This document shows, in pieces, positions 1 to 4,974 of a DNA stretch of 5,095 nt (positions within the stretch are counted from its first letter, which is position 1; every line of letters starts with the position of its first letter). The translations under genes were made by a program, and so were the position numbers. Below the pieces are notes generated by a model that saw only the letters and a program-made list of their open reading frames with translations, ran no database searches and was not told the origin of the DNA. Source of the DNA: Bacteroidales bacterium (GTDB lineage: Bacteria; Bacteroidota; Bacteroidia; Bacteroidales; UBA932); the NCBI GenBank assembly GCA_017509375.1, contig JAFWPT010000475.1:1-5095 (forward strand), given 5' to 3'.

Positions 1-948
1 CGCATCCTCCTGGAAGCACCTCAACCCCCGTCGTCAGGCTTCTTCGCCCGCTTCGAGAATGTCGGAAAGGTGCAGAATATGGGTGTGGAACTCGCAGTTG
101 ACGGGGCCATCTTCAACACCAAGGACTTCGGATGGACCGTAGGCCTGAACCTGGGCTTCAACAAGAACCGCGTGCTGGAACTCCCCAACCACGACGACAT
201 GGTCATGACCAAGAGCGAGGTATCCCAGATCCTCCGTGAAGGAGAGGACGTTTACTCTTGGTATATGCCCAAGTGGGCCGGAGTCGAGACTTACTATGAC
301 GAGGATGAAGAGGAATACTACGGTCTCCCCAGGTGGGAGAAGATCGGCGAGGACGGCAAGGTCGAGTACGTCAACAAGTACAATCAGGCCACCTTCCAGA
401 TCGTCGGCAGCGCTTCTCCTCTGTTCAGCGGCGGCCTGAACACCGCCCTTCGCTGGAAAGGCTTCACCCTGAGCATGAACGGAAGCTACATGGTCGGCAA
501 CAAGATTTACAACAAGACCCGTGAGACCATGGACGGAGACGGTGCCTACACCAACCTCAACCAGATGTCGCTCGACAACGGCCTCGGCTGGGTAAGATGG
601 GACAAGAACAAGAAGAGCACCTGGAAGACCGCAACTCACCCCGAGCCTGTTGCAGGCCGAAGCGACGGTACCAACAAGGCATCTTCGCGCTACCTTGAGG
701 ACGGCAGTTTCTTACGTCTGCGCAACGTCACCCTCTCTTACGACATACCCACCCAGCTCACCCAGAAGATAAAGATGGGCGGCGCCCGCGTGTATGTCTC
801 CGCCGACAACGTTCTGACCCTTTCCCGTTTCTCCGGCATGGACCCTGAGGTAGGCATGGATGCCGACACCTACCATCACGCCGGTCTGTACTCCAGCAAC
901 TACCCTGTACCTATGTCCGTAGTTCTGGGAATCGACGTTAAATTCTAA
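1..948 (+). CDS. SusC-like TonB-dependent outer-membrane transporter, C-terminal part (5' truncated)
   Basis: The frame is open from base 1 to the TAA at 946-948, giving the last 315 residues of a family whose members usually have about 1000 residues. The plug domain and most of the barrel lie upstream of the window. Seen in the sequence (counting from base 1): NVGKVQNMGVEL at 20-31, SPLFSGGLN at 139-147, EDGSFLRLRNVTLSY at 233-247, and NVLTLSRFSGMDPEVG at 270-285. These match conserved SusC/RagA barrel blocks. The protein ends in an alternating strand finishing with Phe (SVVLGIDVKF), the usual C-terminal signal for beta-barrel assembly, so the 3' end is intact. An acidic Tyr-rich segment (98-108) probably lies in an extracellular loop. 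SusC proteins form the barrel under a SusD lid and import oligosaccharides with TonB/ExbBD energy. The SusD-like gene 14 nt downstream supports the call. The substrate is unknown. Confidence 0.95.
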   Translation, partial: RILLEAPQPPSSGFFARFENVGKVQNMGVELAVDGAIFNTKDFGWTVGLNLGFNKNRVLELPNHDDMVMTKSEVSQILREGEDVYSWYMPKWAGVETYYDEDEEEYYGLPRWEKIGEDGKVEYVNKYNQATFQIVGSASPLFSGGLNTALRWKGFTLSMNGSYMVGNKIYNKTRETMDGDGAYTNLNQMSLDNGLGWVRWDKNKKSTWKTATHPEPVAGRSDGTNKASSRYLEDGSFLRLRNVTLSYDIPTQLTQKIKMGGARVYVSADNVLTLSRFSGMDPEVGMDADTYHHAGLYSSNYPVPMSVVLGIDVKF

Positions 949-962
949 ACAAGAGAGTAATT

Positions 963-2738
963 ATGAAGAAGATATTTACAATCGGTTTCGCAGCCCTGCT
1001 CATGGTTTCCTGCAACATGGATTTCTATCCTTCGGATGCCATGACCTCATCACAGCTTGCTGACAACCCGTCCTCGGCTATATACACAACCGACGGCATT
1101 TACTCCCTTTTCAAGGACTTCCTCGCATACAAGGGCGAGAGTGCGGACTACCCCAACGGACGTAACCAGTACCTGCGTCACTACTACCAGTTAACCGAGC
1201 TCCGCGGCGACAATGTTTCCGTGTCCGGAACCACTTCCGACCCGTTCGTACATCCTTACGACTACCAGGATGTTCCCACCGAGGAAAACATTTACTACAC
1301 CTGGTGGCTCGCTTATAAGGTCATCTACGGAGCCAACTCCAACATCGACGCCATCACCCCCGGCGTAAGTGCAGAAAGCGACCATCTGCTTGGAGAGAAC
1401 TACTTCCTGCGTGCACTCGGCCACTTCCACCTGGTTACCCTTTTCTCCATGCCTTACGTGTACTGGAAAGACCATCAGGAAGCCCTTGGAATCCCTATCC
1501 ACAGGGGCATGGACAGCTACAAAGGAGATGTACAGCGTCCTAACGTGGGAAAAGTATACGACGAAATCGTCCTTGACCTGATCGAAGCCCAGAAGTATCT
1601 GGCCGCCGAAGGTGTGCGCACCGACAAAGGCTATGCATCACTGGATGCCGCAAAGGCTCTCCTCGCACGCGTATATCTGTATATGGAAAAGAATCAAGAG
1701 TGTCTTGACATTTGCAACGACCTTATGGGCCACGCTCCTTCGGCCGTTACCGCCGGCTATGACTATGCAGCCTTCCCCACCAAGACTTACGACTTCGACG
1801 AGACCATATGGTGCATACGCGCAAGCCAGACCGACAAGTTCTTCAACACTCATCCCAAGTCTGCAATCGGTTCGATGTACTACGACGACGCCAACATCAA
1901 GCGCTTCGACGAAGACGGCGGCTGTGGCGAGCACTACTGGAGCGAGGAACTCATCGAGCTGTTCCAGCGCTATCCTCAGGACAAGCGTTTTGCAGCTTAC
2001 TTCGTACAGCCTTCCCCTACAGGCGACGGCAAGGTTATGGTAACCTTCCCTGTCAAGACCAAATCAAGCAACACATACTGCTCCAGCGGTGTTGTACACG
2101 GTCTTACCCCGGCAGCTGACGGTTCCGTCGAGTTCGCTTACAGCGGAAAGACATACAAGGCCGAGCCTACCTTAGTCAACGGTTACACCCAATACATCGT
2201 CAACGATGCCGGCTTCGTTTCCGGCAAAGACGGTGCATCAGTCCAGAAGAAAGTATATGTCCGTCCTGACGGCAGCGTACGTGCCAACGGCGGTAACTAC
2301 CCCATTTACTTCAACTGCAAGTTCAATGGCCAGGAAGGCAGGACCAACCTCACATCTCCAGCTATCCTTCGCTGGGGCGAGGTTGTCCTGAACCGTGCCG
2401 AGGCCAGGGCAAAACTGGGATATGGTAAGGAAGCTCTGGACGATGTCAACATCATCCGACACCGCGCAGGCCTGACCGGTGACGCCGATTTTGACGAGAC
2501 CAACTATCAGGCAAGAGGTTATAAAGAAATTCTGGATGTGGTTCTCGACGAGCGCCGTATGGAGCTCTGCTTCGAGGGTCACCGCTACTTCGACGTTTTC
2601 CGTAACCGCAAGGATATGGACCGCCGCTACGTAGGCTTCCACGAGTTCGGCACCATCAAGTGGACCGATCCCCGCATTGCCCTGCTCATTCCTCTGGATG
2701 AAATCAACGCAAGCCATATTCCTCAAAACAGACAGTAA
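963..2738 (+). CDS. SusD/RagB-family surface glycan-binding lipoprotein
   Basis: A complete 591-aa protein starting at ATG 963, 14 nt after the SusC-like stop, so the two are probably co-transcribed. The N-terminus is a lipoprotein signal (MKKIFTIGFAALLMVSC) with acylated Cys17. Family blocks are in the usual order: YYTWWLAYKVIYGANSNIDAI-type helix (111-131, split here as YYTWWLAY then IYGANSNIDA); ENYFLRALGHFHLVTLF (145-161) followed by PYVYW and GIPIHRG; a TPR-like helix with AKALLARVYLYME (230-242); and the C-terminal SPAILRWGEVVLNRAEA (465-481), IIRHRAGL (497-504), and ERRMELCFEGHRYFDVFR (530-547). SusD proteins close over the SusC barrel at the cell surface and bind the glycan before import. 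The stretch between DKR (340-342) and SPAILRW (465) is long, about 120 residues, Gly/Thr/Tyr-rich and probably beta-stranded. It is a likely specificity insertion. Family assignment is firm; the ligand is unknown. Confidence 0.96.
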   Translation: MKKIFTIGFAALLMVSCNMDFYPSDAMTSSQLADNPSSAIYTTDGIYSLFKDFLAYKGESADYPNGRNQYLRHYYQLTELRGDNVSVSGTTSDPFVHPYDYQDVPTEENIYYTWWLAYKVIYGANSNIDAITPGVSAESDHLLGENYFLRALGHFHLVTLFSMPYVYWKDHQEALGIPIHRGMDSYKGDVQRPNVGKVYDEIVLDLIEAQKYLAAEGVRTDKGYASLDAAKALLARVYLYMEKNQECLDICNDLMGHAPSAVTAGYDYAAFPTKTYDFDETIWCIRASQTDKFFNTHPKSAIGSMYYDDANIKRFDEDGGCGEHYWSEELIELFQRYPQDKRFAAYFVQPSPTGDGKVMVTFPVKTKSSNTYCSSGVVHGLTPAADGSVEFAYSGKTYKAEPTLVNGYTQYIVNDAGFVSGKDGASVQKKVYVRPDGSVRANGGNYPIYFNCKFNGQEGRTNLTSPAILRWGEVVLNRAEARAKLGYGKEALDDVNIIRHRAGLTGDADFDETNYQARGYKEILDVVLDERRMELCFEGHRYFDVFRNRKDMDRRYVGFHEFGTIKWTDPRIALLIPLDEINASHIPQNRQ

Positions 2739-2782
2739 TTTTTAACAACACTTATTTTAACATTTTTAATCCCAAACACACA
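2739..2782 (+). other. G-free A/T-rich leader between susD-like gene and CBM9-like lipoprotein gene
   Basis: This 44-nt gap has no G on the + strand (10 C, the rest A/T). It cannot form a stable GC hairpin, so no terminator separates the two genes here. The octamer TTTTAACA occurs twice (2740-2747 and 2755-2762). There is no Shine-Dalgarno sequence before ATG 2783. In Bacteroidota, A-rich unstructured leaders are known to favour initiation, so a role in efficient translation of the next gene is a reasonable inference. No convincing Bacteroides promoter (TTG at -33, TAnnTTTG at -7) is present. Confidence 0.4.
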
Positions 2783-3508
2783 ATGAAAAAAGTATTTGCA
2801 CTGATGGCTATCGCAGCCATGACACTTGTTGCTTGCAACAAGCCTAACAACGATGAAGACGATCCCGGCAAAGAGGATGATTCCAACAAGGAGTATGTAG
2901 CTCCCATCAAAATCGACGGCAACTTCGACGATTGGGCCAATCTCAAAGATGTCACCACTTGGAAATGTGCCGCAACAGCATCCAAGACTGACATGAAGCT
3001 TGCCAAGGTTTATGCCGACAAGTACTATGTTTTCGTATATGTAGAGTTTGACCTCTCCGCTTACGAAACCCTCACTACCACCAACTTCGATTTCCACATC
3101 AACGGTGACAACGACACCTCCACCGGTGGTTGGAAAGGCCAGTGGGACCAGGACGAGACCCCTTGTGTTGACCTGATGTGCCAGGGTGAGATCTTCGGTG
3201 AAGATGGCAATCCTGTTGACTACGCACCCGGCCTCTACAAGTACTTCGGCGCTGCCAACACCAGCGATTGGTCATGGGAAGAGCAGCCTGCTTCCGACTT
3301 CCTTATCGGCAAGGGTAACAAGAAGGCATTCGAGTTCCAGATCACCCGCGAGCTCTATCCTCTTGGCAAACTCAACAAAGAATTCACCATGGGTATCGAA
3401 GTACTCGTGAACGGTTGGGACGCTACCGGCGCTCTGCCTAACACCGAAGCTACCGAGACCAACCCTGCAGGTGAAGCTCCCCTCGGAGTTGTCAAATACG
3501 GCAAGTAG
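2783..3508 (+). CDS. Surface lipoprotein with CBM9/DOMON-like carbohydrate-binding domain (SusE/F position)
   Basis: A 241-aa protein from ATG 2783 with a clear lipoprotein signal (MKKVFALMAIAAMTLVAC, Cys18). An acidic linker follows (DEDD at 24-27, EDD at 31-33), resembling the acidic export signal that sends Bacteroidota lipoproteins to the cell surface. The mature domain opens with IKIDGNFDDW (42-51), the typical first strand of CBM9-like and DOMON-related beta-sandwiches. VFVYVEFD (83-90), the Asp/Asn-rich DFHINGDNDTSTGGW (103-117), which could bind a metal ion, and AFEFQITREL (182-191) follow. These occur in the usual family order. CBM9 domains bind sugars, classically chain ends of xylan or cellulose. 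Here a glycan-binding rather than catalytic role is inferred from the small single domain and from its place directly after SusC/SusD. C128 and C133 lie close enough to form a disulfide. The domain family is moderately sure; the ligand is not known. Confidence 0.78.
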   Translation: MKKVFALMAIAAMTLVACNKPNNDEDDPGKEDDSNKEYVAPIKIDGNFDDWANLKDVTTWKCAATASKTDMKLAKVYADKYYVFVYVEFDLSAYETLTTTNFDFHINGDNDTSTGGWKGQWDQDETPCVDLMCQGEIFGEDGNPVDYAPGLYKYFGAANTSDWSWEEQPASDFLIGKGNKKAFEFQITRELYPLGKLNKEFTMGIEVLVNGWDATGALPNTEATETNPAGEAPLGVVKYGK

Positions 3509-3531
3509 TTTTTATACTTAGTTATTCATTG

Positions 3532-3571
3532 ACGAGGGCCGGTTCCGGCCGGCCCCCGTTTTTAATTTTTT
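3532..3571 (+). terminator. Strong intrinsic terminator after the CBM9-like gene
   Basis: The arms GGGCCGG (3536-3542) and CCGGCCC (3549-3555) pair perfectly around a 6-nt loop, TTCCGG. After one A/C mismatch (3535/3556) the stem gains three more pairs (3532-3534 with 3557-3559). A T-rich tail follows directly: five T at 3559-3563, then AA and six T at 3566-3571. It begins 24 nt after the stop at 3508 and ends 14 nt before the next start, so it lies wholly between the genes. It is oriented for + strand transcription; there is no T-tract for the other strand. Confidence 0.88.
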
Positions 3572-3585
3572 CAAAAGTACATCAA

Positions 3586-4974
3586 ATGAAACGCACAGGC
3601 ATACTGTTAGTCCTTGCCACATTGGCGCTGACCCTCTCCTGCAACAAGAATATGAATCCGGATTATCCTGGCACGGAGAGGATCAGTTTCACTGAAGATA
3701 AAGAAGTGTTTGTCAATCCTGAAAGGGGATTATATACCGGCAGCAGTTTCAGCTCTGAGGCCGGATCGCCTGTATCGACAGGCATCCTTCAGGCCGACAG
3801 GCGCTCCGGCAGAAGCCTGCGCATGATTGAGTTCTGGCTCAAGCCTTTCTTTGAGTCGGACATCTCGGAAGGTTACCTTGAACTTATACGAAAAAACTTC
3901 GAAGCATTCCGCGGAAGCGGGGTCAAGGTCATCCTTCGCTTTGGCTACAAGGATGGCATCCGTGACCTCTCCCATCCCGAGAATGACGCTCCGTTCGATC
4001 CTACCGAAGAGCAGGTTCTCCGTCACATAGCCCAGCTTAAGCCCATCCAGCAAGAGTATGCAGACGTGATTTACGTATTACAGGCAGGTTTCATCGGCTG
4101 CTGGGGCGAATGGTATTACACCACCAACTTTAACATGAATCCTCAGAGTCCGGAAGACTACCTGCCTCGCAAGCACGTAGTGGATGCCCTTCTGGACGCA
4201 CTTCCCGGGAACAGGCAGGTTGAACTGCGTACTCCCCGGTTCAAAATGAAAATGTACGGCTGGTCTTTGGCCGACACTATATCACGCGCCGAGGCGCATA
4301 CCGCCACGGCAAAGGCCCGCCTGGCCGGGCACAACGACTGCTATCTGGCCGGCGCCGACGACCAGGGCACTTTCCGCGGACCTGACGAGAGATCTTACTG
4401 GAACGCCGAAACAAAATACACCATTATGGGCGGCGAGACTTGCGCCATGTCAAAATACTGCGAGTGCCCCAACACTCTGGACAATCTGGCCAAACAGCAT
4501 TTTTCTTATCTCAACCAAAGCTACAACCGCACTGTTATCAACTATTGGATCAAGAACGAGTGCTACGACGAACTTAAAGAGCGCCTGGGCTACAGACTCG
4601 TGCTTTCAGAGGCCGATATAACCAAGAAGCCGGCTGCCGGAAGCCCTTTGCGCGTAGTGTTGCTCATCCGTAACGATGGATTTGCTTCCATCATGAACCC
4701 GCGCGATGCCGAACGGGCCCTCACCGGACCCGACGGCAAGGTCGTGAAAACCTGGCCGCTGAACTCCGACCCCCGCTACTGGATGGCCGGAGAGACTACA
4801 GTAGTTGACCAGACAGTAGAACTGCCCTCCGGACTTAGCGGAGATTATACTATCTGCCTCAACCTGCCCGATCCCGACTATCGCGACAATCCCCTTTATT
4901 CCATACGTCTTGCCAATAAAGATGTTTGGGACGAGGAGACCGGTTTCAACAAATTGCATACAATCACTCTATAA
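3586..4974 (+). CDS. DUF4874/DUF4832 lipoprotein, putative TIM-barrel carbohydrate-active enzyme
   Basis: A 462-aa protein from ATG 3586. This start is chosen because it gives a clean lipoprotein signal (MKRTGILLVLATLALTLSC, Cys19); an upstream in-frame TTG at 3529 would read through the terminator hairpin. Motifs recognisable from the DUF4874 + DUF4832 pair are NPERGLY (44-50), IEFWLKPF (81-88), VILRFGY (115-121), QAGFIGCWGEWYYT (166-179), VELRTPRF (212-219), CYLAGADDQGTFRG (252-265), GGETC (282-286), HFSYLNQSY (305-313), and LGYRL (334-338). Residues from about 350 onward look like a C-terminal beta-sandwich. These families have no established reaction that I know of. The spacing of beta-strand-like segments suggests a TIM barrel with Glu175 and Glu284 as candidate catalytic residues (inference). 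The five cysteines at 252-326 may form disulfides, fitting an exported protein. It probably faces the cell surface or periplasm and acts on the glycan handled by the upstream genes. Function remains unproven. Confidence 0.85.
   Translation: MKRTGILLVLATLALTLSCNKNMNPDYPGTERISFTEDKEVFVNPERGLYTGSSFSSEAGSPVSTGILQADRRSGRSLRMIEFWLKPFFESDISEGYLELIRKNFEAFRGSGVKVILRFGYKDGIRDLSHPENDAPFDPTEEQVLRHIAQLKPIQQEYADVIYVLQAGFIGCWGEWYYTTNFNMNPQSPEDYLPRKHVVDALLDALPGNRQVELRTPRFKMKMYGWSLADTISRAEAHTATAKARLAGHNDCYLAGADDQGTFRGPDERSYWNAETKYTIMGGETCAMSKYCECPNTLDNLAKQHFSYLNQSYNRTVINYWIKNECYDELKERLGYRLVLSEADITKKPAAGSPLRVVLLIRNDGFASIMNPRDAERALTGPDGKVVKTWPLNSDPRYWMAGETTVVDQTVELPSGLSGDYTICLNLPDPDYRDNPLYSIRLANKDVWDEETGFNKLHTITL

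Follow-up and report, generated by a model that had tools for sequence, protein, structure and literature searches.

Many biofilms of bacteria and fungi are held together by galactosamine polymers, and only few enzyme families are known to cut these. Among the galactosaminidases are PelA, Sph3 (GH135), Ega3 (GH114) and GH191. Here we consider gene P0001 on a stretch of 5,095 nucleotides from a Bacteroidales bacterium (GenBank assembly GCA_017509375.1, contig JAFWPT010000475.1; the whole stretch is called the window), whose product carries the domains DUF4874 and DUF4832. Its predicted fold, conserved residues and gene neighbourhood suggest that it is exported and cuts polymers of aminogalactose as an (N-acetyl)galactosaminidase. 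The proposed substrate type is that of the enzymes named above, whereas the Pfam matches of P0001 are DUF4874 and DUF4832 only.

The one tested DUF4832 protein that we found is SIR_1591 from the pel cluster of Streptococcus intermedius. When purified, it disrupts pre-formed aggregates of the Pel polymer, which is rich in N-acetylgalactosamine (GalNAc), much as the PelA hydrolase does, and Sph3 breaks up these aggregates as well (PMC12345266, 2025). Hence, the glycosidase function of the DUF4832 family is partly known already, and the preliminary description of the window, which had proposed an undescribed glycoside hydrolase family, was too strong in this respect. P0001 shares with SIR_1591 the DUF4832 domain, a layout of TIM barrel followed by beta-sandwich, export and a link to galactosamine polymers, which for P0001 is a proposed one. 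The two differ in that SIR_1591 is part of a cluster for biosynthesis and carries a transmembrane helix, whereas P0001 is encoded in a SusC/SusD locus as a lipoprotein. DUF4832 genes were also reported beside pel in streptococci and clostridia (PMC7112168) and among capsule genes of Klebsiella oxytoca (PMC6258164), and a DUF4874-DUF4832-dockerin protein of a Ruminococcus appeared in the metaproteome of a rumen consortium (PMC7480376). Among the loci compared here (L numbers; genomes have G numbers), DUF4832 genes end Enterobacter and E. coli plasmid exopolysaccharide clusters and adjoin galE on the opposite strand (L029 9488-10879, L030 7545-8948).

A SusC/SusD locus coupled to GalNAc metabolism is known from Bacteroides thetaiotaomicron (B. 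theta), where the polysaccharide utilisation locus (PUL) BT4240-50 serves mucin GalNAc. However, it differs in a GalNAc kinase probably acting at O1, an M60-like peptidase and GH109 (PMC11992087), and the main text of that paper contains none of the terms AgaS, tagatose and DUF48. GH135 of some bins was assigned to galactosaminogalactan (PMC11653725). In the literature searched, we found neither a description of a locus by which Bacteroidota take up Pel or galactosaminogalactan nor a mention of the accessions PF16173 and PF16116. The new part of the present work is the substrate clue from the linkage to aga-like genes (galactosamine catabolism), with AgaR- and AgaS-like genes ahead of SusC/SusD in L001.

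Predicted fold and conserved residues of P0001

P0001 (3586..4974, forward strand) encodes 462 residues from its ATG, and the coordinates and codons given earlier are correct. An alternative TTG start would lengthen the frame by 57 bases; the ATG at 3586 is preferred because it opens a lipoprotein signal (3586..3642) ending at the nearly invariant Cys19, present in at least 90% of 41 alignment rows. Pfam places DUF4874 (PF16173) at residues 44-218 (E 4.4e-38, 130.9 bits, gathering score 30.1) and DUF4832 (PF16116) at residues 245-444 (E 1.9e-55, 188.4 bits, gathering score 29.2). At least 2216 relatives were found at E<=1e-3 among 8000 candidates scored. Sequence searches of solved structures gave one chance match each to unrelated proteins (E 0.04 and 1.1), and phage records gave no match at E<=1. 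The best 120 matches for P0001 and for an Enterobacter relative include none named Streptococcus, most rows being without names.

Based on an alignment of 82 sequences, AlphaFold2 predicts a complete (beta/alpha)8 barrel and a C-terminal beta-sandwich (pLDDT 93.8, pTM 0.89), and a barrel-only model from 48 sequences is concordant (pLDDT 90.6, pTM 0.90). According to DSSP, the barrel covers residues 48-310 (3727..4515) from strand 1 to strand 8, with the last helices reaching residue 333, and the sandwich residues 338-462 (4597..4971). The barrel strands are predicted at residues 48-55, 78-84, 114-120, 162-166, 211-214, 246-253, 281-285 and 308-310, further strands at 30-34 and within 338-461. 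The models thus agree with the TIM barrel and the sandwich expected from the sequence in the preliminary description, and also with the barrel of clan GH-A and the layout of SIR_1591. All eight strand segments laid out by eye overlap a predicted strand, although segment 6 (251-263) does so at its start only and segment 4 (160-176) extends ten residues beyond its strand. Glu284, assigned to the end of strand 7, is found there in the model; Glu175, assigned to the end of strand 4, is predicted in a loop, nine residues past the strand end at Q166.

Conservation was followed in 274 aligned sequences. The P0001 search contributed 121 of them, counting the window protein itself, and the search with the Enterobacter relative, an exopolysaccharide-cluster protein, contributed 120 that are 36-98% identical to it; the other 33 are locus proteins. 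The rows are top-of-list matches and were not drawn at random. Glu175 of the W-G-E-W motif (4108..4110) occurs in 273 and Glu284 (4435..4437) in all 274 sequences, both codons having been checked in the letters. Arg118 (271), Trp173 (273), Asp251 in strand 6 (4336..4338; 273) and Asp259 in the loop past strand 6 (4360..4362; 271) are similarly conserved, the two Asp being candidate active-site residues. Glu175 is missing only from P0212, a piece of 259 residues with a gap at this site, and both Glu are invariant among 41 close relatives including the window protein. Left out of the alignment were L027 (under the Pfam cut-off), L033 (wrong frame translated) and L001c (partial protein); if they are included, both sites stand at 121/121 and 35/36, the miss being L033, a Nonomuraea gene whose correct frame, read by eye, encodes WGEW and GGET. 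Judged from these alignments, conservation of the Glu pair is far above chance, in agreement with the invariance that the preliminary description had asked for. A divergent DUF4832 type in L003 and L008 has WAEY and GGEF in place of WGEW and GGET. Additional DUF4832 proteins were found in the same loci or genome (L001 9697-11385, L002 6519-7901, L003 13670-14959 and L008).

With its barrel, sandwich, invariant Glu pair and PUL setting, P0001 is very probably a glycoside hydrolase, as had been hypothesised. Glu175 would be the general acid on the loop past strand 4 and Glu284 the base or nucleophile at the end of strand 7, while the sandwich would aid glycan binding or the shape of the active site. 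A non-catalytic role, in which P0001 would serve the PUL as a barrel protein that binds glycans, appears very unlikely. Its activity is a prediction, and a barrel fold in common does not prove a function (the Foldseek matches also include old yellow enzymes and further barrels), but the near-perfect conservation of both Glu, W173, R118, D251 and D259 as well as the activity of SIR_1591 (PMC12345266) argue against this alternative.

The assignment to clan GH-A in the preliminary description was not supported. In this clan, strand 4 closes directly with the acid/base Glu (Asn-Glu). In P0001, Q166 is the last residue of strand 4 and A-G-F comes next, and no Glu occurs in residues 158-174; Glu284 does agree with the strand-7 Glu of the clan, with a putative role as nucleophile. 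Ten relatives from the Enterobacter search were scanned with Pfam, nine of them picked because the listing already showed GH42, and all ten gave a weak GH42 match (E 1.8e-7 to 5.8e-4; P0229 below the cut-off) to the first barrel half only, which reaches strand 4 in eight and ends 8-11 residues before the conserved Glu. From these matches, the scanned proteins may be distantly related to GH-A barrels. However, with Glu175 nine residues past strand 4 and the GH42 match stopping short of the conserved Glu, the proposed acid does not occupy the GH-A position. P0001 shares with GH5 and GH42 the TIM barrel and the Glu that ends strand 7, and some relatives the weak GH42 match, but it lacks both the strand-4 Glu and a Pfam match to either family.

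The acid of GH14 beta-amylases lies on a longer loop past strand 4, a place to which that of Glu175 may correspond. In the whole-model Foldseek search, which matches folds, ranks 1-5 were all GH14 (for example the beta-amylases 1b90 and 1itc), with low TM-scores (<=0.36) and a root-mean-square deviation >13. GH14 and GH5 tie in the VIA fold comparison, in which a family missing from the lists excludes nothing, and barrel-only searches placed GH5 level with GH14 or first. Since both folds tie, the label of a retaining GH-A enzyme is unproven. Pfam at E<=10 listed 15 families for the 82 members of the set A2, among them no known glycosidase family, GH14, GH42 and GH5 included, with HMMER filters dropping most matches above 0.1. 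Beta-amylases act on starch. They have Glu186 and Glu380 in their TIM barrel as acid and base (PMC8449922, PMC12892837), and similarity to them was also reported by the authors of the SIR_1591 study (PMC12345266). Taken together, a GH14-like inverting hydrolase with the acid on the loop past strand 4, the base on strand 7 and an attacking water has close to an even chance. A retaining GH-A glycosidase with Glu175 as acid/base and Glu284 as nucleophile about 5 angstroms apart, for which the whole-model ranking of GH14 is a further difficulty, is rather doubtful. Inversion is slightly favoured over retention.

Linkage of DUF4832 to aga-like genes

The window is collinear with positions 3942-9064 of L001 (90.7% identity), which comes from the metagenome-assembled genome RUG13810 ('uncultured Bacteroidia'), the prefix RUG presumably denoting a rumen genome. 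L001 contains, in order, AgaR-like and AgaS-family genes, SusC (two overlapping frames), SusD, a lipoprotein, the P0001 orthologue, another lipoprotein, a second DUF4874/DUF4832 protein, a weak DUF5106 match, an alkaline phosphatase and a partial DUF4874 protein. AgaR and AgaS lie beyond the window and could not be seen in the preliminary description. The adjoining SusC and SusD genes in the window and in L001 form the PUL setting that had been recognised from the window. Further genes expected of an aga cluster, namely KbaZ-, PfkB- and aldolase-like ones, occur in L003, L066 and L133-L136. L003 also has a KbaZ-like gene, an EamA transporter, a gene weakly similar to phytase/SdiA-regulated ones and a DUF4832 of divergent type that stays under the cut-off. 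L066 has the order DeoR (divergent), AgaS, KbaZ, PfkB, class II aldolase, SusC, SusD, PKD lipoprotein and DUF4832. In L133-L136, tblastn showed canonical DUF4832 with AgaS, KbaZ, PfkB, aldolase, amidohydrolase, GH36-like and SusC-like genes.

The linkage was quantified in 393 genomes of the order of G001, taken to be Bacteroidales, with thresholds of E<=1e-40 for AgaS, E<=1e-3 for any DUF4832 hit and E<=1e-20 for canonical DUF4832. AgaS was found in 19 genomes and DUF4832 in 33 (30 above the cut-off, 19 canonical); 14 well-known control genomes had DUF4832 in none and AgaS in one (E. coli). Any DUF4832 hit occurred in 11/19 AgaS genomes versus 22/374 others (Fisher p 1.3e-8), canonical DUF4832 in 9/19 versus 10/374 (p 1.2e-8), and without G001 in 8/18 versus 10/374 (p 1.2e-7), all p values being too small because the genomes are related to one another. 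In seven genomes (G001, G404, G461, G493, G511, G603, G650) the canonical DUF4832 gene lies 6-13 kb from AgaS. Earlier flanks of about 10 kb, shorter at contig ends, had shown DUF4832-family frames in 3/18 AgaS neighbourhoods (L057, L059, L066), of which the divergent one of L066 (G361; 25.2 bits versus the cut-off of 29.2) was missed by the genome search. In a draw from the phylum, DUF4832 was present in 15/296 genomes, with AgaS in the fetched stretches of three of them (G001, G010, G159; 2/14 without G001).

A tree was made of 45 DUF4832 proteins. Placing the 13 aga-linked among its 36 labelled rows takes a minimum of 6 label changes, although the label is more clustered than in most shuffles (6/500 as low); the label of L124 rests on AgaR and AgaS fragments, and some loci contribute two rows. 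The tree fits loss of the link as well as its repeated gain.

Proposed substrate of P0001 and companion genes

We regard it as rather probable that P0001 is an exported lipoprotein glycoside hydrolase cutting a polymer rich in galactosamine (GalN) or GalNAc. Our own results behind this reading are the predicted fold, the invariant Glu pair, the SusC/SusD locus and the recurrent aga-like linkage; the roles of the Glu pair, the substrate, its linkage, endo or exo action and stereochemistry are inferred. P0001 would cut a polymer resembling Pel or galactosaminogalactan, the fragments would be bound and imported by SusC/SusD together with the neighbouring lipoprotein, and AgaS-type and tagatose-pathway enzymes would convert galactosamine-6-phosphate into tagatose phosphates, to be split by the aldolase. 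Type IX secretion tails on two aga-linked DUF4832 proteins (L073, L075) and the lipoprotein signal of P0001 indicate that the enzyme probably acts outside the cytoplasm. Aminogalactose is a probable constituent of the substrate, whereas an alpha-1,4 Pel-like polymer is somewhat less than an even bet.

Several points weigh against this reading, in addition to the relatedness of the genomes. The AgaR, AgaS and KbaZ matches are below the NCBIfam curated cut-offs, some loci are cut by contig ends, and no named galactosaminidase family occurs among the neighbour genes scanned. The hydrolase role of P0001 and the aga-linked DUF4832 proteins is predicted from sequences and models. Deletion of SIR_1591 gave no aggregation phenotype, and its assay was one of dispersal and not product analysis (PMC12345266); the supposed kinship with P0001 rests on the published DUF4832 label and the layout. 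Moreover, AgaS was absent near the fetched genes of 12/15 DUF4832 genomes of the phylum draw, and 10/19 canonical-DUF4832 genomes of the order draw had no AgaS hit at E<=1e-40, which makes other substrates within the family likely. The same 12 genomes speak for an enzyme that cuts another glycan, with the aga genes processing a side-chain amino sugar, as does a GH36-like gene in 8/18 AgaS neighbourhoods, because of which the substrate may be branched. Nevertheless, aga-linked DUF4832 proteins stand on several tree branches and SIR_1591 attacks a GalNAc polymer (PMC12345266); another glycan appears rather unlikely. The alkaline phosphatase of L001-L003 (L001 12110-13243, L002 12131-13267, L003 16998-18161) is also left unexplained by the galactosaminidase reading. 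The streptococcal pel cluster likewise holds possible phosphate-metabolism genes (PMC12345266), and by this analogy the polymer may be phosphorylated.

The window begins with the 3' part of the SusC/TonB-dependent receptor gene (1..948, forward strand as all genes here), its 5' end lying beyond the window; its PF00593 match (E 2e-5, 25.1 bits) is slightly below the cut-off of 27, and it is collinear with the SusC region of L001. There, SusC is split into two overlapping frames (1921-4919) by a frameshift or an assembly error. In the window, SusC is followed by a SusD-like outer-membrane glycan-binding lipoprotein (963..2738; PF07980 E 1.7e-23, PF14322 E 2.6e-17) and a lipoprotein (2783..3508) with an acidic stretch after the Cys and an IDGxxDDW segment, a putative surface glycan-binding protein. 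The latter has no match in the Pfam scan and one below the cut-off to TIGR04145 (E 2e-8); related lipoproteins occur in L001-L004, and L001 holds a second copy at about 9069-9667 (69% identity, 612 columns). A weakly phytase/SdiA-like gene is found in L002 and L003. Several loci have an EamA-type transporter close to aga-like or DUF4832 genes (L002, L003, L056, L069, L070, L071, L073, L075, L084), which is a possible candidate for an amino-sugar permease.

Tentatively, and with more doubt than confidence, DUF4874/DUF4832 could represent a dedicated family of aminogalactan depolymerases with a catalytic layout outside clan GH-A (the acid on the strand-4 loop), serving Bacteroidota uptake loci for biofilm polymers of the Pel/galactosaminogalactan type. 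If true, this would account for a domain of unknown function and reveal Bacteroidota as grazers of galactosamine polymers. The family is large, its proposed active site and substrate can be tested, and it would then become a source of new biofilm-cutting enzymes.
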